A stretch of DNA of 64,000 nt from Meiothermus sp. (GCF_026004115.1 NZ_BPIM01000001.1:682001-746000); one strand, 5' to 3'; numbered from the stretch's first letter, positions 51,076 to 64,000 are shown. The notes: a model not told the origin generated them from the letters alone. Translations and numbers: made by a program.

Positions 51076-51846
51076 TCAGTACGTTCCCAACGAACCCTGT
51101 TGTCGAGCCCTCCGGATGGCGCGTTGAAAGAGCCCGATCCCTAGCGCCAGATAGGCCAGGGCATTGACCCCGGCGAGGAGAAGAAGCTCCCAGCCAGGAT
51201 CTTGCCCTTGACCGAGCATAATTCGTAGCGCAGAAGCCGAAGGCACCAGCGGCAGGAGGGAGCCCAGAGCATTCCAAGGCAAGGTCAGCGCCTCAAAACG
51301 TACCAAGAAAAGACCCAATAAAACGTATTGTAGGACGCCCAGGAGTTGCCCTACCCGCTTGTAAACCAGGGCCAGCCCCCCCAACATAAGCCCCAGGCCC
51401 AGTGCACTGAAGGCCAGGGTAGCCAAGGGGAGAAGGGCCAAAGGTTGGAGATCCAGCCTTGCTCCAGAGGTAGCGAGAATAGATAGAAAAACCGGGATGT
51501 TCAACAAGCCAATATAGAGGATGGATAGGGCCGCACGAACCAGCACCAACCCCAACAGACCGGGGCGGGTGAGGGCCAGTTGCTCCATAAGACCCGTCAA
51601 TGCCTCCTCCGAAATGGTAGAGGCCGAAGTAGAGAGCAGGGAAAAGGCTAGGGTCCAGGCCAGGAGGCTGATCACCATAGCCTCCAGTCGCTCACCGAAG
51701 AGGGCCGAGCCGGCCAGGTAGCGCACCCCTATGAAGAAGAGGGCAAAGCCCACCGCCGCACCCATCACACCCCCAATGAGCTCCAGAGGATAACGGATAA
51801 TGGATCTCAAAAAGCGCCAGAACTCAATTTGGACAACCCGAATCAA
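51076..51846 (-). CDS. ABC-2 type permease
   Basis: 256-residue membrane protein with six predicted helices in ABC-2 exporter order (LIRVVQIEFWRFLRSIIRYPLE at the N-terminus; GLMEQLALTRPGLLGLVLVRA). TTG 51844-51846 overlaps the ATPase stop (TTGA) and is preceded by AGGAAGAG, so the long open frame to 52014 is not used. Forms an exporter with the upstream ATPase; the cargo may be the peptide encoded at 53864-54106, by context. Confidence 0.85.
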   Translation of the reverse strand: MIRVVQIEFWRFLRSIIRYPLELIGGVMGAAVGFALFFIGVRYLAGSALFGERLEAMVISLLAWTLAFSLLSTSASTISEEALTGLMEQLALTRPGLLGLVLVRAALSILYIGLLNIPVFLSILATSGARLDLQPLALLPLATLAFSALGLGLMLGGLALVYKRVGQLLGVLQYVLLGLFLVRFEALTLPWNALGSLLPLVPSASALRIMLGQGQDPGWELLLLAGVNALAYLALGIGLFQRAIRRARQQGSLGTY

Positions 51847-52790
51847 GGTCTCTTCCTTTCCCCTAGCATGCGCCAGAAAAGCCCCTCGAGGGAGAGGCTC
51901 TCCCGCTCCACCCGCTCGAGGGGTAGAGGATCCAAGATTCTGAGCACTTCCCACAGGACTTCCTCGCCCACCACCCGAACCGCTGCCCCCTCCACTTCCG
52001 CTCCACAGGCCCATAGTTTGGCAAGACGCGGATCCCCCTCTTCCAGGGGAGTCTGCAGCTCCAATCGGTAGGGATCGCCTGGAGAGCCTTGCAGCACCGC
52101 TTGTTTTTTCCCCTCCAGGGCCAACACCCCATCGAGAAGGATAGCCACCCGGTCGGCCAAGGCTTCGGCCAAGTCCATCTGGTGGGTAGTGAGGAGAATG
52201 GACTTGCCGTCATTCTTCAGCTGTAGGATCCATGTACTGATGGCTTCCTGGGCTTCAAGGTCTACCCCCAAGGTGGGCTCGTCCAGGAAAAGGATGGGGG
52301 GGTCGTGCACCAGCGCTACGACCAGGGCTGCCCTTTGTTGCTGTCCCCTGGAGAGGGTGCCCACAATTTGATTGGCCTTATCCAGAAGACCCACGGCCTC
52401 CAAGAACTCCAGTCCACGCTGCCGAGCCTGCTTGGGACTGAGTCCGCGTAGTACGCCAAAATAGACGAGATTCTCCAGGATGCTCAAGCGCCAGTAGAGG
52501 TTGCGGTTGCCCTCCAGCACCGCACCCAACCAGGTTCGTCGCTCTACCTGCGGTAGGCTTATCTGCCCACCATCCGGCTCTACCAGGCCAGCTAGTATCT
52601 TGACCAGGGTCGTCTTACCCGCGCCGTTGGGGCCCAAAAGGGTCAGGATCTCCCCCTGGAAGAGCTTTAGACTGATCCCCTTCAATGCCTCTTGCCAGCC
52701 CTTTCCCTTGGGATAGCGCTTGTGCAATTGATGGGCCTCCAGGACTGGGGCCGGGCTGGTGGAGTTGGCGCTCTTCATGCTTGGGTTCAT
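51843..52790 (-). CDS. ABC-2 exporter ATPase
   Basis: 315-residue ATPase with Walker [15 protein letters not shown], signature TLSRGQQQRAALVVAL (SRGQQ instead of SGGQ), Walker B ILFLDEPTLGVDLE and H-loop TTHQ. A C-terminal extension of about 70 residues follows. ATG 52788-52790 is the likely start, inside the preceding gene's last bases; ATG at codon 5 is possible. Pairs with the ABC-2 permease. Confidence 0.9.
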   Translation of the reverse strand: MNPSMKSANSTSPAPVLEAHQLHKRYPKGKGWQEALKGISLKLFQGEILTLLGPNGAGKTTLVKILAGLVEPDGGQISLPQVERRTWLGAVLEGNRNLYWRLSILENLVYFGVLRGLSPKQARQRGLEFLEAVGLLDKANQIVGTLSRGQQQRAALVVALVHDPPILFLDEPTLGVDLEAQEAISTWILQLKNDGKSILLTTHQMDLAEALADRVAILLDGVLALEGKKQAVLQGSPGDPYRLELQTPLEEGDPRLAKLWACGAEVEGAAVRVVGEEVLWEVLRILDPLPLERVERESLSLEGLFWRMLGERKRP

Positions 52791-52798
52791 GGTCGGCT

Positions 52799-53776
52799 CT
52801 AGAATATTCGGGCTTCCATGCCGGGGCATATGAAGTCAATGTGAGCGCCGGTGACCCCATCGCCAACGGCAAAATGGATACCACGCGCCCCCTCATTGAG
52901 CACCGAATTGACGCTCCAGTTGAGGTTGGAAGCCTCTAGACCCGGGTTATGGCTGATGGCCATTTCCACTAGCATGAGCTCGAGCCGAGGGTTCGAGAGC
53001 TCCCTTATTTCATCTGCGAAGTCTGCCCCGTCCACTGAACGCACCTCCTTCAGTTGTGAATTTTCTATAGTGACCCTCAGCGGGACTCTCCTTTGCTTGA
53101 CCAGGCCGCCTAACAGCTGCCATGCCCTAATAGGCAGTGAAGTCAGTTGAGCAGGCATTATTCTGTGATGAGCAACCGCTACCCCTGGAACTATAGCTTC
53201 GCCGTTAACAATGTATCCCGGGTGGAAAAGATCCTCGTTATCTGGAATCATAGCGATTTCAAAGAACATGCCTACTGCCTCCCACTCGCCTGGCAGTAAG
53301 CCTGCCTGAACGCGAGGGAGCATAAGATCTAGCCTCTCCTTCAGGACGATTTCTAGTTCGCCGTAGGCCCCCTTAAATTCGATGCGTTGAACATCACCCT
53401 TCTTTAGCAAGGAGATCCACTTCTCATTTTCCTTGGTAGCTTTAGTGAAGTCCGAGGAAGCAAGCAGCTCTACCGTATAGATGGCCGCCTCCAAAGAGGG
53501 GTCAAAAGCGACAAGGGGAATAATCAAAACCCGGCTGCCTTTGAAGTAGCGCTCGAGTTGAAAAAATGAGAATCCATCCGCTGTTGTAGGCAAAAGAATT
53601 ACATTTTTGTGCAGTTTCTTAGAGAGGTTTGATATCTCTTTCAACAAGGAAGATGCGATGCCTTGAGCTGTGAACCAATTAACCAAATCGAGATAATCCG
53701 TCACAAAAAGGGGCTTGGATTTTCCAAAAACAGGTGCCAAGGATAGTTCTAGCCTGTACTTCAAATCGCTCCCCAT
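52799..53776 (-). CDS. M29 aminopeptidase-like metalloprotein
   Basis: 325 residues; the C-terminal half resembles the M29 (AmpS/AmpT) aminopeptidase and NicX-type dioxygenase fold. Candidate ligands are Glu193 (NGEAIVPG), Glu271 (LVEMAIS), His301 (GIHFAVGD) and His312-x-Asp314 (GAHIDF). The N-terminal half is poorly conserved. Located between a small Cys-containing peptide gene and an ABC exporter, all on one strand, so peptide trimming or modification is plausible. AT content is higher than in neighbouring genes. Confidence 0.65.
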   Translation of the reverse strand: MGSDLKYRLELSLAPVFGKSKPLFVTDYLDLVNWFTAQGIASSLLKEISNLSKKLHKNVILLPTTADGFSFFQLERYFKGSRVLIIPLVAFDPSLEAAIYTVELLASSDFTKATKENEKWISLLKKGDVQRIEFKGAYGELEIVLKERLDLMLPRVQAGLLPGEWEAVGMFFEIAMIPDNEDLFHPGYIVNGEAIVPGVAVAHHRIMPAQLTSLPIRAWQLLGGLVKQRRVPLRVTIENSQLKEVRSVDGADFADEIRELSNPRLELMLVEMAISHNPGLEASNLNWSVNSVLNEGARGIHFAVGDGVTGAHIDFICPGMEARIF

Positions 53777-53863
53777 AATAACCCCCTAGAAATGCAGCCC
53801 CAGCTCAACCCTGGTAGCTTGGTCTCCTAAGCTAAAGGACTTGGTACCCTTGACTGGAACCGG

Positions 53864-54106
53864 CTAGATCCCCGCCGCACATGGGCAGGTTACTGAAGGG
53901 ATTTGTTCAGGGTTGTTGAGTTCTTTAGGAATCCAAGTGTATGCAACAGTATAACCGAAAAATCCAACGAAGGGCTTGTCAGCGCTGCTCCCTCCAAGGT
54001 TACACAGTGGGTTAGCAATAAGCACTGTAGCCTTCTTGTGGCGACCTTCCGACACAAAATTAAGCAACCTTGGTGCTTTTGACCTAAGCTGTACGGTTTT
54101 CTCCAC
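53864..54106 (-). CDS. Putative precursor peptide, 80 residues, Cys-rich tail
   Basis: 80 residues, GTG 54104-54106 with AGGTGG upstream. The N-terminal half is basic and hydrophilic (RSKAPRLLNFVSEGRHKK), the middle is Gly/aromatic-rich (FVGFFGYTVAYTWIP), and the C-terminus is SVTCPCAAGI with Cys74 and Cys76; another Cys is at 35. No known family. Position ahead of an M29-like enzyme and exporter makes a modified or secreted peptide plausible, but this is inference. Confidence 0.5.
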   Translation of the reverse strand: MEKTVQLRSKAPRLLNFVSEGRHKKATVLIANPLCNLGGSSADKPFVGFFGYTVAYTWIPKELNNPEQIPSVTCPCAAGI

Positions 54107-54179
54107 TCAGACCACCTCTCTGAGAAACCTTAAATCTGAGTTGGGGCTGCATTCCCAAATTTGTTGTAGCACCCCCCAC

Positions 54180-54288
54180 GTAACCAAACCCCCTCTCAGA
54201 ATGGTTACGTTCTTAACTCATTTTGGTTACCTTCCCTCTCATATTGGTTACCTTTTGACGGTTTTTGTCACCTTGCCCTTGCTAGGGT
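54180..54288 (+). promoter_or_regulatory. GGTTAC iterons and -10 box of small secreted peptide gene
   Basis: GGTTAC occurs at 54203, 54225 and 54246 (periods 22 and 21 bp), with a degenerate fourth unit GTCACC at 54267 and an inverted unit GTAACC at 54180. TAGGGT (54283-54288), ten bases past the last unit and six before the ATG, serves as -10; no -35 is evident. This is the arrangement expected for SARP-type activators, which bind repeats in place of a -35. Confidence 0.65.
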
Positions 54289-54294
54289 GAGGGT

Positions 54295-54435
54295 ATGCGC
54301 AGGGTGAGATGGTTTTTGTTGTCGCTGATTCTGCTGGCTTTGGGTTGGAAGGAATTGGGCTACGCCTGCACCCTCCCCGACTGTGTTCCACCGGGGGCGG
54401 TGCGCTCGGGGGGGCCTAGCGGTACTGGGCGCTGA
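54295..54435 (+). CDS. Small secreted Cys-pair peptide
   Basis: 46 residues: basic start (MRRVRW), hydrophobic signal segment (FLLSLILLALGW), then YACTLPDCVPPGAVRSGG with Cys25 and Cys30. No homology known. It begins six bases after a -10 box that lies behind activator-like iterons, and its 3' end overlaps that of the convergent TPR/SARP regulator by 20 bases. The layout recalls peptide-pheromone/TPR-receptor pairs; inferred only. Confidence 0.55.
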   Translation: MRRVRWFLLSLILLALGWKELGYACTLPDCVPPGAVRSGGPSGTGR

Positions 54436-56047
54436 GCCTCTTGACCCAGGATCGGGCCGCGGTGTAGCGGGGGTCTTGCGGGGGCAGGCGATGTAGGAGG
54501 GCCTCCCAGAGGGTGAGGTCGTCCGGGATTTGCTGGGCCAGGCAGTAGAGCAGCTCGAGGTCGGGCTGTTGCAGCACGGCTTCTTTGAGCTGCTCTTCGA
54601 TGCGGTGGCGCAGGAGCTCGATGCCCGGGGCCTGGCTTCTGGGCAGGAGGGGGCCCTGGTAGAGGGCCAGGGCTTGGTAAAGCTGGTTTCGTTCCAGGGC
54701 TTCTTGCAGTTGTAGAAAGTCGGCCTCGATGGGGCTAAGGAGCCGGTAGGGGCGGCTCTGGACTTCCAGGCCCTGCTGGCGCAGGCGGCAGAGCTCGCTC
54801 CGGAGGGCCTGGGGGTTGGGTGTGGGGTAGAGCTCTTGGGCCAGCTTCTCCCCTTCGATCCCCTCAGGATGAGCCAGCAGCAGAGTGAGGAGTTCTATGC
54901 TGCGGGGCCTCAGGTTGGGGAAGCCCTGGAGCTGGGCTTTTCCCAGGGTTTGCAGGTAGGGGGTGGCTTGGGTAAGCGGGGGAAGTTCCGCTGGCAGGAA
55001 GAGGGCTCTAGCCTCGGGGCGGAGGGCGTGGGCCATGCGGCGGTAGGGCTCGGGGAGGGGCTCACTGTTGAGTGCGCAGAGGTGGGCCACCGCCCGCAGC
55101 GCCTCCTCGGCCCACTCGGCTTCCAGGGTGGGCAGGCAGTCTTCCAAAAGAGGGCGGGCCTCGGGCTGAGGGTAGCGGTACAGTCCTTCGGCCAGCAGCA
55201 GCAGGGCCTGGGGCAGGGCTTGGTTAGAAGGTTGAGCTTTAGTCGCCCGCAGCAGGCGGGCAAGCTGCGGGTCTGCCGGGGGAGTCGGGCGTGAGGAGGA
55301 CGGGAAGCGGTCTTTGAACAGCAGCACCCAGAGGGGCAGGTCGTAGGGCAGCAGGTGGGGGCTATGGTAGCTACTTAGATAAGTTTGCAAGAGTTCCGGA
55401 TTGACCTGCCCCTGCATCCGCTGCAGCAGCAAGGCCAGCCACAGGGCGTAGTAGCGCACCGGGGGGGCCTCGTGGGCCAGCAAGGGGGGCAGGGATTCCT
55501 CGAGCGCAGCGAGGGGCTCCTCTCCGGCATAAGCCAGCAGGGTCAGCTCCTCCAGGCGGTAGTGGGGCTGCTCGGGGGCCTGCAGAGCGGCCAGGCTGGC
55601 GTAGGAAAGGGCTTCCCCCCACCGCCCCAGCCGCCTGAGGGTGCGGGCCAGGGCATGGGCCAGGCGGGCCTGCTCTCCGGCTGGGGCGCCCTGGGCTTGG
55701 AGCTGGTGAAAGGCTTCCTGCAGGGCCAGCAGGCCATCGGCGGGCGGGAGCGAGAGGCCCAGGTGGTAGAGGGTCAGGGGGGTCTGGGCCGCCTGGGCCG
55801 CGGCCAGGGCCAGGCGGCGGTAGGCGGCGTGGTCGCCCTGCCGGAAGGCGGCGAAGCCCAGGAGGGCCAGGCGTTCGGCGCTTTCTGTCTCCTCCCGCGG
55901 CTGCCAGGCCTCCAGCAGGGCTGCGGCCTCGGCAGGCTTTCCCAAGGACAGCAGGGCCAGCGCCACCGCTTTAGCATCCCCCTGCTGCTGGGCCAGCGCG
56001 AGGGCCTCCGCGTAGCGGCCCCGCCGGTAAAGGGCCAGGGCGTCCAT
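54416..56047 (-). CDS. TPR protein with SARP-like transcriptional activator domain
   Basis: 543 residues. The first about 380 are TPR-like helices rich in Leu and Ala (ALYRRGRYAEALALAQQQGD). A winged-helix region follows (LRPRSIELLTLLLAHPEGIEG...ALRSELCRLRQQGLEVQSRPYRL), then a BTAD-like helical tail (DFLQLQEALERNQLYQALALYQG). Domain order is reversed relative to Streptomyces SARPs. TATACT is six bases before ATG 56045-56047, so a leaderless mRNA is likely. A relative lies at 62787-64000. Confidence 0.82.
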   Translation of the reverse strand: MDALALYRRGRYAEALALAQQQGDAKAVALALLSLGKPAEAAALLEAWQPREETESAERLALLGFAAFRQGDHAAYRRLALAAAQAAQTPLTLYHLGLSLPPADGLLALQEAFHQLQAQGAPAGEQARLAHALARTLRRLGRWGEALSYASLAALQAPEQPHYRLEELTLLAYAGEEPLAALEESLPPLLAHEAPPVRYYALWLALLLQRMQGQVNPELLQTYLSSYHSPHLLPYDLPLWVLLFKDRFPSSSRPTPPADPQLARLLRATKAQPSNQALPQALLLLAEGLYRYPQPEARPLLEDCLPTLEAEWAEEALRAVAHLCALNSEPLPEPYRRMAHALRPEARALFLPAELPPLTQATPYLQTLGKAQLQGFPNLRPRSIELLTLLLAHPEGIEGEKLAQELYPTPNPQALRSELCRLRQQGLEVQSRPYRLLSPIEADFLQLQEALERNQLYQALALYQGPLLPRSQAPGIELLRHRIEEQLKEAVLQQPDLELLYCLAQQIPDDLTLWEALLHRLPPQDPRYTAARSWVKRLSAQYR

Positions 56048-56204
56048 GGGGGGAGTATAGCAAGCCGTGCCCCTCCCCACTTGAGGCTCGGGAACGAATG
56101 CCAAACTTTCGCCGGGTGCGGTTGTGGAGAGAACAGGAACAACCAGGTCTGCAAGGATCCGTATCGGCAATGTGGAGCATTCTAAAATGTGGTACGATTC
56201 AATT

Positions 56205-56474
56205 ATGAAACACCCCGTGGTGCAACAAGCCGTACAGCTAGGGGTCAAAGGGCGTCTGGTACTACCGGCTGGGGTGCGCCGGGTTTTGCGGCTGCGGGAG
56301 GGGGATCGCCTGCTGCTGCGGCTGCGGGACGATGGGGTAATCGAGTTGGTCAAGGCGGAGGAAGTTGTACTGGGGAGCAAGGGTCTGTTGCAGCGTCTCT
56401 ATCCGGCCCTGAAGGGGAAAACACTGGCTCAAGAACTGATCCAGGAACGGCGCAGGGAGGCCCTGCAGGAATGA
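56205..56474 (+). CDS. AbrB/SpoVT-type antitoxin
   Basis: 89-residue swapped-hairpin AbrB-domain protein (QLGVKGRLVLPAGVRRVLRLREGDRLLLRLRDDGVIEL) with a C-terminal helix that would bind the toxin. TACGAT lies six bases before the ATG. The following PIN gene overlaps by four bases. Together they form a type II toxin-antitoxin module autoregulated by the AbrB protein. Confidence 0.88.
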   Translation: MKHPVVQQAVQLGVKGRLVLPAGVRRVLRLREGDRLLLRLRDDGVIELVKAEEVVLGSKGLLQRLYPALKGKTLAQELIQERRREALQE

Positions 56475-56869
56475 GCGTGGTGCTGGATGCCTCGGCCTTG
56501 CTAGCCTACCTCAACCAGGAGGCGGGGGCTGAGGAAGTCGCTCGGCAGATGGTTGGGGGCGGTTTTATTAGCGCCGTGAATCTGGCCGAAGTCTACAGCA
56601 AGGTGGCCGAGTGGGGCCAGGACGTGCACCTGCTGGAGCAGGCCCTGGTGCGGCAGGGTTTGCTGGGGGGTGTATTGGAGGTGGTGCCCTTCGGCCCTGA
56701 AGACGTCCAGCTTGTAGCAACGCTGCGACCCTTGACCAAGGCCCAGGGGCTATCCCTGGGAGATCGGGTCTGTCTGGCGTTGGCTATGCGACTGAAATTG
56801 CCAGCCATCACCACCGACAGCGCCTGGAACAACCTGGAAGCAGGGGTTGAGGTGCGGGTGGTGCGTTAG
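56471..56869 (+). CDS. PIN domain toxin
   Basis: 132-residue PIN ribonuclease (VapC-like): [12 protein letters not shown] with the first Asp, [12 protein letters not shown] with Glu, [15 protein letters not shown] with Asp, and ITTDSAWN with Asp. Expected to cleave RNA unless bound by the AbrB-type partner. ATGA overlap with the antitoxin gene. Its stop overlaps the end of the comM fragment on the other strand. Confidence 0.9.
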
Positions 56870-57325
56870 GGCAGGCTCCGCCTATAGGTCAGCGCCTCGG
56901 CCAGGTGGGCTTCCTGGATGGGTTCTGAGTTCGAGAGGTCGGCGATGGTGCGGGCTGTCCGCAGGATGCGGTCGTAGCTGCGGGCGGTGAGGGCTAAGCG
57001 TTTAGTAGCCGCTTGCAAGAGGGCCTCACTGGAGGGGGAAAGCACCGTGTGCTGCCGTAGCGCTCTACCGAAGAGTTCGCTGTTGGGCTTTCCCTGGCGG
57101 GCCTTCATCTTTTCCCGAGCCAGGCGCACCCGTTCCCGCACTGCGGCGGTGGACTCCCCTTCCGGGGCGCGGGCGAGTTCGGCGGGGGTGAGGCGGGGGA
57201 CTTCCACCACCAGGTCGAAGCGGTCGAGCAAGGGGCCGGAGATGCGGTTCACGTACCGGGTGCGCTGGGTAGGGGTGCAGCTGCAGGGTCTTTCCGGGTC
57301 GCCGTGCCAGCCGCAGGGGCAGGCG
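56866..57325 (-). pseudogene. comM: comM (YifB/Mg-chelatase-like) C-terminal fragment, long copy
   Basis: Encodes the last about 153 residues of ComM, a helicase-like AAA+ protein used in natural transformation: [56 protein letters not shown]. Homology stops abruptly near 57325, where unrelated sequence encoding a small HTH protein begins on the other strand; the N-terminal two thirds with Walker motifs is absent from the window. comM is a known insertion hotspot for genomic elements. Confidence 0.8.
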
Positions 57326-57356: not shown

Positions 57357-57536
57357 GTGGGGTACGTTCTTCCCCGCAAGAAGCCGGGGCCGGTGGGCAA
57401 GATAGAGCTACGAGCTTTGTTGGTAGACGAGCACCGCCGGACAGGAGCCGGTGCCCGCAGCCTGGCTCGGAAGTATGGGGTGAGCAGCGGGACGGCCTGG
57501 AGGTGGGTGAGTGGGAAAAGGGCTAAGCGCTTTTGA
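57357..57536 (+). CDS. Small helix-turn-helix protein, possible transposase fragment
   Basis: 59 residues from GTG 57357, ending [25 protein letters not shown], a clear helix-turn-helix like those at the N-terminus of many transposases. Short, without a catalytic domain, and placed exactly where comM is broken. Its end overlaps the convergent VapC gene by 14 bases. Could be a remnant of the element that disrupted comM. Confidence 0.5.
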
Positions 57537-57933
57537 GGTTGTGTTCCTGCAGGGGGCTATGGCCCGCGATGGTCGCAAAGTGGGCATCGCCAAAGTGCCA
57601 CAGTTCACAGCCATGCACCAAGGCCGCTCCGGCGATCAGCAAGTCCACCGTAGGTACCCGCTGGCCGGAACGGGCCAGTTCGTAGGCCAGCTGGCCAGCC
57701 ACCCCCGCCTCTTCGCTTCCCAAGGGTAGCCAGAGCAGGGCCTGCAGGTCAGCGGCGAGAAGACCGTAGTCTTTCTCGCTCTTTGCGCCGGACAGAAGTT
57801 CCACGGCAATCGGCGCTAGGACCGCGATCTCATGTACCTCCAAGGCGTTACCCAGGGCTTGCTTGACCTGGCGGGCACCCATGGGGTGATAAAACTCAAT
57901 CCAGGCCGATGTATCTACCAAGATGCGGGCCAC
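57523..57933 (-). CDS. VapC-type PIN toxin
   Basis: 136-residue PIN domain: MARILVDTSAWIEFYH, AVLAPIAVELLSGAK, PTVDLLIAGAALVHGC and GDAHFATIA carry the acidic residues. GTG 57931-57933 overlaps the antitoxin stop by one base (TAGTG), so the two are co-translated. Predicted to cleave structured RNA. Confidence 0.9.
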   Translation of the reverse strand: MARILVDTSAWIEFYHPMGARQVKQALGNALEVHEIAVLAPIAVELLSGAKSEKDYGLLAADLQALLWLPLGSEEAGVAGQLAYELARSGQRVPTVDLLIAGAALVHGCELWHFGDAHFATIAGHSPLQEHNLKSA

Positions 57934-58139
57934 TAGCGGGACTCCCGCAGCGCGCGCAGGGTTTCCTGGGTGAGCTCGAGCTCCACCCGCCCGGCGTGGG
58001 CCCGGATGCCCCGGCGGCGCTGCTGGCGCACCAGCTCCTGCAAGGCCCGCTCGATGGCTTCCCGTTTGGTGCGCACCCCCAGCACCCGGCGGGCCTCTTC
58101 CAGCAGGGCTTCGTCAATTTCGATGGTCATGCGGGGCAT
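57933..58139 (-). CDS. VapB-type antitoxin
   Basis: 68-residue ribbon-helix-helix antitoxin of the VapB type: MTIEIDEALLEEARRVLGVRTKREAIERALQELV is the DNA-binding core; the charged tail (ELTQETLRALRESR) should bind the PIN toxin. Start ATG 58137-58139, or codon 4 (58130). TATACT at 58149-58154 (minus strand) is nine bases upstream. Confidence 0.88.
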   Translation of the reverse strand: MPRMTIEIDEALLEEARRVLGVRTKREAIERALQELVRQQRRRGIRAHAGRVELELTQETLRALRESR

Positions 58140-58413
58140 GGTGTTTCGAGTATACACGCCCTCGCGTGCATTTAAGTGTGCTTCTAAGTCAGATGTAACA
58201 GTCAAGACCCCAACCACCCCGTGACCCGCTTATGGGCGGGCATCTACAGTAGGCTGGATGGCAGAGTCATGGCCGGGGTCAACGTCCTGGGGATTAACCT
58301 AAGTGGAGACATCATCTCCTAGGGCGCAATTGTCCCCGAAACCCCCCTGCTGCCCGAGTTTTCCAGGTGCTGGCGTGGAGTTGGGCTCACCCCTTGCCCC
58401 TGAAGGAGGCGAC

Positions 58414-62435: not shown

Positions 62436-62634
62436 AACTCAAAACTTGCATTACCCGAATATCCCGCATAAACACGCGCCACCTGCTCCTCCTAAGGCAC
62501 GAAGTTCCTACGAGAGCCTGCGCAAAGAAGTTCGGGGAAAGGAGGCCGAACCGCAGACCGCGCCGCAATAGCACGCCATACTGCTCCTATTCTAGTGAGG
62601 CAGGGATGCTCGTTTCATACGATCCTCACCCCAG

Positions 62635-62728
62635 ACTCCGCCTATAGGTCAACGCCTCCGCCAGGTGGGCTTCCTGGATGTGTTCTGAGCTCGAGAGGTC
62701 GGCGATGGTGCGGGCCGTCCGCAGGATG
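62635..62728 (-). pseudogene. comM: comM C-terminal fragment, short copy
   Basis: About 94 bp matching 56875-56968 with roughly five mismatches, same orientation. It encodes only [30 protein letters not shown] before a stop and has no upstream comM sequence. Together with the longer fragment it brackets 5.7 kb of accessory DNA. 62436-62634 contains no recognised gene. Confidence 0.75.
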
Positions 62729-62786: not shown

Positions 62787-64000
62787 TTACTCAGCAGACC
62801 AAAAGCGCTTCAAACGTGTTTGCAACAGGACTCGCCGCGGATCATCAGGGTGTAGTTGGTTCAAGAGGGCTTCCCAAAATTCTGGGTCTTCCTCCTGCAT
62901 TGCCAGCTCGAAAGCTGGCTGGATCGCGCTCTGAGAAAGCAGCGTTTTCTTCAGTAGCAACGAGAGCTCCTCACGAGCTTCTATCACGATTGGGGCCTCC
63001 GAGCCGGGCAAGAGCGGCCCGCCATACAGTGCCAGTGCGCCCTCTAGGTTACCTTGTAAGAGCCGCTCTCGCAGCGTGACAAAATCGGCCCAGACCCGGC
63101 CTGAAAGCCGGTAGGGACGGCTCACCAGGGGGAGCTGCTGCCGCAGTCGCCGAACCTCGGCTTTCGCTACTTCGGGCCTACTCCCCTCTCCCCAGACCCG
63201 GAGGGCCAACTGCTCTGCGCTCAGACCGGCGGGGTTGAGGACTAGGGCCACCAGAATCTCCCGATGCCGTAGGGTGAGCTGGAGCGGAGCACCCTCGAGC
63301 CAGACGGTCTCACCACCCAGAAAGTGCAACCGGAGCTTTGGGGCCGGCTCGAGCAAGGCCAAAACCTCTTGAAAAAAAGCCGCCGGACCGGCCAGAAAGG
63401 CTCGCCCCTCTGCGCTCAAACCTTCGAGAGCCCACAACGCCTCAGCCAGGGTTGTGCGGGCTTTGGCTTCCAAGCCCAGGCTGAGATAGGCCTTGGCTAG
63501 GTACAGGGCCGTCATAGCCGCACGGGGCGCGCTAGGTCGCCGCAGGAAACGCCCCAGAAGCTCTGCTAGGGGCTCCACGGCCTCCGAAGGGTTCAGCAGA
63601 GAAAACGGCAGCAGGTAGGCTAGCTCACCCCAGTCACCAAACGTGTCCAGGGTTTCCGCCCCCAGCACCTTGGCCTCGAGGCCCAGCACCAGGGCCTCTT
63701 CCAGCCTGCCCAGCCCCAAAAGCGCCCGCACCTCGCGGGCCAGGATGGGCAGCCGACGGGCCCGGATGGGAGGCAGTTGATCGTCCACAGTTGCGTAAGC
63801 CTCGAGGGCCGCCTCGGCCTGCCCCAGGGCCAGCAAAAAGTCCCCCTGCGCCAGCAGGGCGTCTGGATGCTTTATTTCCAGCGGCGGAAGCACCTCCAGC
63901 CGTCCCCCTAAAATCTGGGCGTAGCCCCACGCCATGTGCAAAGTGTTGCGCAGGGATGGATGCTTTAGCCCAATGGATTCGGCAACCCGCAGGCCCCAAG
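62787..64000 (-). CDS. TPR protein with SARP-like activator domain, partial
   Basis: About 404 codons visible; the frame runs through the right edge, so the N-terminus is missing. It has TPR-like helices, then a winged-helix region (GAPLQLTLRHREILVALVLNPAGLS...AEVRRLRQQLPLVSRPYRL) and a BTAD-like tail (ADFVTLRERLLQGNLEGALALYGGPLLPGSEAP). Same architecture as 54416-56047 with moderate similarity, so the two are paralogues regulating different targets, perhaps the exported-protein operon to the left. Confidence 0.8.
   Translation of the reverse strand, partial: WGLRVAESIGLKHPSLRNTLHMAWGYAQILGGRLEVLPPLEIKHPDALLAQGDFLLALGQAEAALEAYATVDDQLPPIRARRLPILAREVRALLGLGRLEEALVLGLEAKVLGAETLDTFGDWGELAYLLPFSLLNPSEAVEPLAELLGRFLRRPSAPRAAMTALYLAKAYLSLGLEAKARTTLAEALWALEGLSAEGRAFLAGPAAFFQEVLALLEPAPKLRLHFLGGETVWLEGAPLQLTLRHREILVALVLNPAGLSAEQLALRVWGEGSRPEVAKAEVRRLRQQLPLVSRPYRLSGRVWADFVTLRERLLQGNLEGALALYGGPLLPGSEAPIVIEAREELSLLLKKTLLSQSAIQPAFELAMQEEDPEFWEALLNQLHPDDPRRVLLQTRLKRFWSAE

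Follow-up and report, generated by a model that had tools for sequence, protein, structure and literature searches.

A conserved secreted-peptide and TPR-SARP head beside exchangeable RiPP-type clusters of Thermus and Meiothermus as a candidate chemical-signalling switch

We analyzed a locus within a 64,000-nt stretch of Meiothermus sp. DNA (GCF_026004115.1, NZ_BPIM01000001.1:682001-746000; hereafter the window) and found a compact control unit that stands beside many RiPP-type clusters of Thermus, Meiothermus and their relatives and that looks like an undescribed chemical-signalling switch of hot-spring bacteria. The unit consists of a repeat array, a small gene for a putatively secreted Cys peptide and a convergent gene for a regulator that joins a TPR domain to a predicted SARP domain (Table 1). 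Its best explanation, which we consider fairly probable, is a pheromone-responsive TPR-SARP activator circuit that controls exchangeable RiPP cassettes. A first-pass annotation of this DNA had described a regulator convergent with a repeat-controlled peptide; beyond that reading, the repeats would act as a bidirectional promoter whose chief target is the exchangeable RiPP payload lying on the other side.

Table 1. Features of the control unit and its payload, in window positions
Feature	Position	Strand	Details
Predicted ABC permease	51076-52014	-	by position; true start probably further in
ABC transporter ATPase	51843-52829	-	PF00005, E = 8.7e-28
CgnB homologue, 325 aa	52799-53776	-	profile match to 6zsv, E = 1.1e-8, profile positions 86-324
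Candidate RiPP precursor, 80 aa	53864-54106	-	leader MEKT..APRLL.FV.EG.H.K and C-terminal C-P-C-x-x-G-I conserved; role assigned from position and pattern
-10-like box of leftward payload promoter	54163-54168	-	TACAAC, 10 nt from core 1
Core 1	54179-54185	-	GGTTACG on minus strand (CGTAACC on plus); inverted; core of leftward promoter; 24 bp upstream of core 2
Core 2	54203-54209	+	GGTTACG
Core 3	54225-54231	+	GGTTACC; spacing from core 2, 22
Core 4	54246-54252	+	GGTTACC; spacing from core 3, 21
Core 5	54266-54272	+	TGTCACC; spacing from core 4, 20; exactly 10 nt before -10
-10 box of peptide gene	54283-54288	+	TAGGGT; ATG at 54295 after 6 nt
Peptide gene, 46 codons	54295-54435	+	MRRVRWFLLSLILLALGWKELGYA followed by CTLPDCVPPGAVRSGGPSGTGR; full sequence MRRVRWFLLSLILLALGWKELGYACTLPDCVPPGAVRSGGPSGTGR
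Predicted mature peptide	54367-54432	+	CTLPDCVPPGAVRSGGPSGTGR; begins at Cys25, putative cleavage site
Regulator, 543 aa	54416-56047	-	TPR superhelix about 1-345; SARP 364-542 (winged helix 364-436, helical BTAD-like 443-542)
Regulator -10 box	56054-56059	-	TATACT, 6 nt before ATG (leaderless type), without a GGTNACC core just upstream

The window sequence between 54179 and 54295 contains five near-palindromic heptamers, their core best written GGTNACC, with a period of 20-24 bp. The first-pass annotation had listed GGTTAC at 54203, 54225 and 54246 with a weaker fourth unit on a 20-22 bp period, all of which are present, and had missed the fifth, inverted unit at 54179. Its placement of a -10 box six bases before the peptide's ATG, without a -35, holds; the sequence 17 bp upstream of that box has no visible -35 hexamer. 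Leaderless genes of Deinococcus-Thermus normally have a promoter whose -10 box lies only a few bp ahead of the start codon (PMC12340547), and the peptide ORF therefore looks like a proper leaderless gene. In several relatives (for example the second copy in L034, and L044), the position of core 5 is occupied by GGTTACC. The arrangement core-N10-(-10)-N6-start is constant in the peptide-keeping Meiothermus-type modules and in ten Thermus loci, where the peptide start is intact, except that L064 lacks the core and L057 deviates by one base.

Several other readings of the repeats were considered. The single GGTTAC hexamer is only mildly above expectation in the window (25 observed, 19.2 expected). 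Chance repeats were rejected because a two-unit array pattern is limited to four places in the whole home genome and the reversed control gave 0, and CRISPR-like or replication iterons are disfavoured by the promoter geometry and the flanking genes. A plus-strand ORF that runs through the array (53976-54290) was taken as non-coding, having no Pfam match and overlapping the conserved cores.

The peptide carries Cys25 and Cys30, and its ORF overlaps the 3' end of the convergent regulator gene by 20 bp, both as annotated before. Judged by eye, its putative Sec export signal has a basic start and 12-16 hydrophobic residues, with Ala at -1 in 18 of 21 forms. Across nine copies of the Meiothermus type, the peptide frame has a pN/pS of 0.51 (0.60 in the signal part and 0.39 in the mature part), compared to 1.07-1.12 in the other two forward frames. 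The ratios show that selection acts at the protein level, most strongly on the mature part. The core C-x-x-P-x-C-x-P-P-G is common to 21 non-redundant homologues, among which Cys1, Cys6 and Pro9 are kept in 21/21, Pro8 in 20/21 and Pro4 in 19/21. Both this core and the promoter spacing hold across Meiothermus, Calidithermus-like and Thermus genomes. The shortest natural mature forms, all from Thermus, have 11-13 residues (CFRSECMPPGH, CLDLGCWPPRG and CLAPHCPPPGLGL), and this suggests that activity resides in the core alone. The mature peptide probably forms a ring between Cys1 and Cys6 followed by an xPPG tail; a ring with a short Pro/Gly tail would resemble vasopressin, in layout only. Pfam and NCBIfam profiles left the peptide, the regulator and the 325-aa payload protein unnamed, and only structure and profile searches made them interpretable.

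We then compared genomes. The regulator protein was searched for in 61 relatives, and the genus set comprised 18 genomes including the home genome. A full-length orthologue of the regulator occurs in 9 of these 18 (the home genome counted) and is also encoded, with 46-50% identity, by many Thermus genomes. The head, meaning the array with the peptide gene and the end of the regulator gene, is present in ten of the 18: the nine with a full-length regulator and G002, where the regulator is internally deleted. All eight genus genomes that lack the head also lack a full-length regulator. Next to the Meiothermus orthologues, the head is nearly letter-identical, with TAGCACCCCCC..GTAACCAAACCCCCTCTCAGAATGGTTAC.., three to five cores, the -10 box, the peptide and the regulator's end. 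Thermus heads have their own sequence and their own number and orientation of cores, yet keep core-N10-(-10)-N6-start and the peptide motif. Among the carriers are Meiothermus granaticius, M. luteus and M. sp. KatS3mg071, together with Thermus composti, T. caliditerrae, T. arciformis, T. igniterrae, T. scotoductus and T. parvatiensis; the regulator-peptide pair is also found on two T. thermophilus plasmids, and the JL-18 plasmid pTTJL1802 encodes a regulator as TTJL18_RS11855. Calidithermus roseus has a regulator fragment, and in G018, from another genus of the family, the head is present and the regulator is cut by the contig end. The first-pass annotation had staked its reading on finding the small ORF and the repeats beside orthologous regulators, and both are conserved there in Meiothermus and Thermus.

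A pattern that is independent of the regulator, combining the promoter geometry with C-x4-C-x-x-P, was run on 111 Deinococcota genomes and yielded 40 matches in 29 of them, compared to 0 for the reversed control. Among the 30 matches fetched, 27 are in-frame, putatively secreted peptides, and matches in L096, L120 and L121 were dismissed as out of frame and due to chance. A TPR-SARP gene lies convergent at or near the 3' end of 24 of the 27 peptides found in this way. The pattern also uncovered diverged forms, such as CLDLGCWPPRG in a Thermus genome (L107) and CKSPDCLPPS in L122; the latter genome belongs to another family, and the contig may be misplaced. Two different peptides accompany two regulators in T. 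parvatiensis and T. scotoductus (L063/L075, L074/L076), which is what parallel, insulated circuits would predict.

An AlphaFold2 model of the whole regulator (pLDDT 87) shows a TPR superhelix, followed by a winged helix and then a helical bundle. Compared to solved structures, modelled residues 19-341 are closest to the Rap protein of phage Phi3T with its pheromone (Z 21.4), with further matches to MalT domain III (20.7), Rap-CSF (20.1), NprR-NprX (18.8) and AimR (about 18); Pfam TPR matches are weak. The TPR fold is not proof of peptide binding, because of the tie with MalT and the general likeness among TPRs. The C-terminal 199 residues, folded alone (pLDDT 90), match AfsR in its transcription complex (Z 14.6 over 182 residues, and 14.1) and EmbR (12.6 and 12.2), the next fold reaching only 8.9, and all Foldseek matches below 1e-3 are AfsR. 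The BTAD profile scores 15.2 bits against a cut-off of 22.1, and the C-terminus shares about 39% identity with proteins of Streptomyces and Deinococcus (E of 7e-17 and 4e-22). By modelled fold, the C-terminal domain is a SARP, in support of the SARP-like winged helix first annotated. SARP folds were absent among the matches listed in a whole-regulator VIA-align comparison because the TPR domain filled the list; the C-terminus alone settled the fold. A second TPR-SARP gene lies 7 kb off (window 62787-63941 and beyond, G000:C1:744802), with a C-terminal domain about 39% identical; it has no such peptide and no GGTNACC array alongside, and its neighbours include a SagB-like dehydrogenase (L043 2692-3888); it may therefore control a different peptide cluster.

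The repeats broadly resemble those of SARP promoters, where direct repeats 11 or 22 bp apart are bound, the last of them 8 bp from the -10, replacing a poor -35 contact (PMC10936776). Here, the spacings are 22, 21 and 20 bp and the distance to the -10 is invariant, but it is 10 nt rather than 8 bp. The regulator resembles SARPs of the AfsR, EmbR and ActII-ORF4 type in predicted fold, with an OmpR-type winged helix and an all-helical BTAD fold, in heptamer repeats about 22 bp apart beside a -10 lacking a good -35, and in its putative natural-product targets, which favours the SARP-style repeat promoter proposed by the first-pass annotation. It departs from them in its inverted domain order, the SARP domain being C-terminal rather than N-terminal. 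It also has a TPR domain at the N-terminus and no NOD/ATPase domain, and is accompanied by a near-palindromic core and a linked, putatively secreted peptide.

On the other side, most copies of the head keep a leftward promoter of matching geometry, GGTNACC or CGTNACC-N10-TANNNT, whose box in relatives reads TATAAA or TAGGGT. Among Meiothermus copies, the leftmost 100 bp of the head are nearly identical; the homology stops sharply at TAGCACCCCCC, and the DNA beyond is wholly different. The payloads found there include a LanM-type protein with DUF4135 (L042), a StsB-like radical SAM protein with PqqD (L041), a WgkB-like radical SAM protein with a methyltransferase (L044 and L045), a radical SAM protein in Thermus (L046) and a FecR-like protein with an ABC exporter (L036, L037, L040 and L043), where FecR-like is a sequence reading and has no Pfam match. 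The FecR-like/ABC payload is possibly a further peptide-maturation system. A payload protein of 207-222 aa with a FecR-like start and a Cys-containing C-terminus recurs beside the ABC exporter (L036 7374-8042; L034, L037, L040 and L043).

The payload in the window resembles a crocagin cluster in that a homologue of CgnB, the crocagin peptide-binding protein whose structure is 6zsv (PMC10070186), lies beside a small precursor-like ORF and transporter genes. The 325-aa protein matches CgnE (6zsu) with an E-value of only 0.15. Unlike the 21-aa CgnA, the precursor-like ORF has 80 aa and a Cys-rich end, with relatives in L034, L035 and L039, and no CgnC, CgnD or CgnL was recognised among the ORFs listed. 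Homologues of the permease adjoin the ATPase in L034, L036, L038 and L039. CgnB homologues occur in 5 of the 61 genomes searched, with a second home-genome copy at G000:C1:765902, and the crocagin survey lists no Deinococcota (PMC10070186, Nat Chem). As an observation in its own right, window 52799-53776 with 53864-54106 reads as a crocagin-like RiPP cluster whose candidate precursor, ending in C-P-C-x-x-G-I, is of a new type. A 17-nt inverted repeat (94% complementary, 53791-53807 and 54137-54153, 329 nt apart) brackets the precursor ORF and may be a small mobile element or chance.

The home genome has four heads and an intact regulator at only one of them; therefore, one regulator probably serves several cassettes in trans. 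At the three further heads (L043 7610, G000:C1:753107; L043 13512, 759009; L044 13511, 2927464), the regulator is truncated or absent; one has a broken peptide frame, and another keeps the array and payload and has lost both peptide and regulator. These three are apparent satellites of the intact circuit, and satellite arrays stand at the head of payloads even where the local regulator is not intact.

We propose a mechanism whereby the TPR-SARP regulator acts as an activator, rather than a repressor. Dimers of its SARP domain would bind the GGTNACC heptamers on one DNA face, two turns apart, and would replace the missing -35 contact at two divergent promoters. The rightward promoter would express the leaderless peptide gene and the leftward promoter the payload operon, here the crocagin-like RiPP cluster with its exporter. 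The peptide would be exported through its signal sequence, accumulate outside the cell and be trimmed to a short, presumably disulfide-bonded product that starts at Cys25. The mature peptide would then be re-imported by an oligopeptide transporter and bound in the groove of the N-terminal TPR domain, switching on the SARP domain and closing a positive, density-dependent loop. Peptide import is possible, as 13 peptide-binding SBP_bac_5 proteins are present. Among the considerations that weigh against the pheromone reading, Thermaceae have an outer membrane that a re-imported peptide must cross, and the conservation of peptide and regulator is partly tied together by the gene overlap.

Alternatively, the TPR domain could sense a metabolite, a partner protein or the payload's product, and the Cys peptide could be a co-regulated antimicrobial, an immunity peptide or an envelope lipopeptide. 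This is rather unlikely, though it has evidence of its own. In the model comparison, the sugar-sensing MalT domain III lies within one Z unit of Rap, which leaves room for a different TPR ligand; such a peptide is absent from several distant TPR-SARP paralogues, among them the one starting at 62787, and thus TPR-SARP proteins do not need one; and the Cys that directly follows the signal segment in 21/21 forms is lipoprotein-like, though position -3 is rarely Leu. However, a product or immunity factor would be expected to travel with the payload, and here one peptide core motif is kept and always stays with the regulator while the payload chemistry changes completely between LanM DUF4135, StsB-like, WgkB-like, CgnB-like and FecR-like/ABC classes. 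Consequently, the peptide is more likely a signal than a product.

The convergence of the peptide gene with the regulator's 3' end, which it overlaps or faces in nearly all copies, would also suit a negative feedback in which the rightward promoter sends an antisense transcript into that end and the ORF is secondary. We consider this improbable, since the peptide is selected at the protein level, its motif is kept across genera, and in the short-peptide Thermus clade an equally conserved ORF ends about 100 bp before the regulator's stop. Still less probable is that the repeats and peptide mainly serve as a recombination platform for RiPP cassette exchange, their identity stemming from recent gene conversion. 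The sharp boundary at TAGCACCCCCC and the comM 3' fragments that recur at island borders both fit such a platform, but recombination alone does not explain why the diverged Thermus heads keep their promoter spacing and peptide motif.

Around the islands, fragments of the comM/yifB 3' end are found at window 56872-57321 and 62629-62727 and in L036, L037 (two), L038, L040 (two), L043, L045 and L052, many of them beginning at the same residue, 346; in L035 and L041, an intact comM lies beside the regulator. The recurrent fragments, set against the intact gene, suggest that comM is an integration or recombination hotspot of these islands. By sequence reading, VapBC-like toxin-antitoxin pairs lie directly upstream of the regulator (56209-56869 and 57523-58217), and similar pairs flank it in L034, L039, L040 and L041.

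The pheromone-responsive circuit is best compared with the RRNPP/RRNPPA systems of Bacillota (Rap-Phr, NprR-NprX, PlcR-PapR and AimR), where a small secreted-peptide gene likewise adjoins the TPR receptor gene and some known systems control antimicrobial production. The best structural match of the regulator's modelled TPR domain is peptide-bound Rap, with NprR and AimR not far behind, and the 46-aa peptide, with its 20-bp overlap, falls within the 10-100 aa expected of a propeptide adjoining its receptor gene. The receptor differs: its 543 aa exceed the usual 250-500 aa (Thermus orthologues have 487-499 aa), and its TPR domain precedes the effector instead of following it, with a C-terminal SARP domain as the putative DNA-binding part in place of an N-terminal HTH. 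The peptide, with two Cys and a conserved PPG, and its convergent, leaderless gene also differ, as does the host, which belongs to Deinococcota. Of the RRNPP hallmark that the first-pass annotation had seen here, the RRNPP-like TPR domain stands and the membership does not; the circuit would work like RRNPP, yet by domain order, DNA-binding fold and length the regulator is no member. RRNPP_detector scanned only Firmicutes and viruses, expects Shine-Dalgarno sites and discards N-terminal TPRs (PMC10075063).

A constant signalling head with variable antimicrobial payloads is also known from pheromone-controlled bacteriocin loci, such as blp of pneumococcus and nisin. Their heads are two-component or peptide-ABC systems, in contrast to the single TPR-SARP protein found here. 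In the openly accessible literature searched, we found no paper that treats SARP and RRNPP together and none that treats Thermus, Meiothermus and RiPPs together, which is weak evidence of novelty.

There is a real chance that this is a new signalling family. The full claim, on which we are evenly divided, is a Deinococcota family of peptide quorum sensing with a disulfide-ringed, Cys-first pheromone (C-x4-C-x-P-P-G, down to 11 aa), a TPR receptor fused to a SARP activator, a bidirectional promoter governing interchangeable RiPP clusters of unrelated chemistry, and several heads and pherotypes per genome. If true, peptide signalling through a cytoplasmic receptor would reach a deep-branching phylum for which none is described in the literature searched, and two separately known halves, a pheromone-type TPR domain and a SARP activator, would be joined in one protein. 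Such systems would have been missed as leaderless, convergent and tiny ORFs beside receptors whose domain order is rejected by current detectors. The candidate pheromones would be very short and chemically simple, in a genetically tractable host group. Silent RiPP clusters of Thermus and Meiothermus could then be located in raw sequence by their GGTNACC-N10-(-10) signature and switched on.
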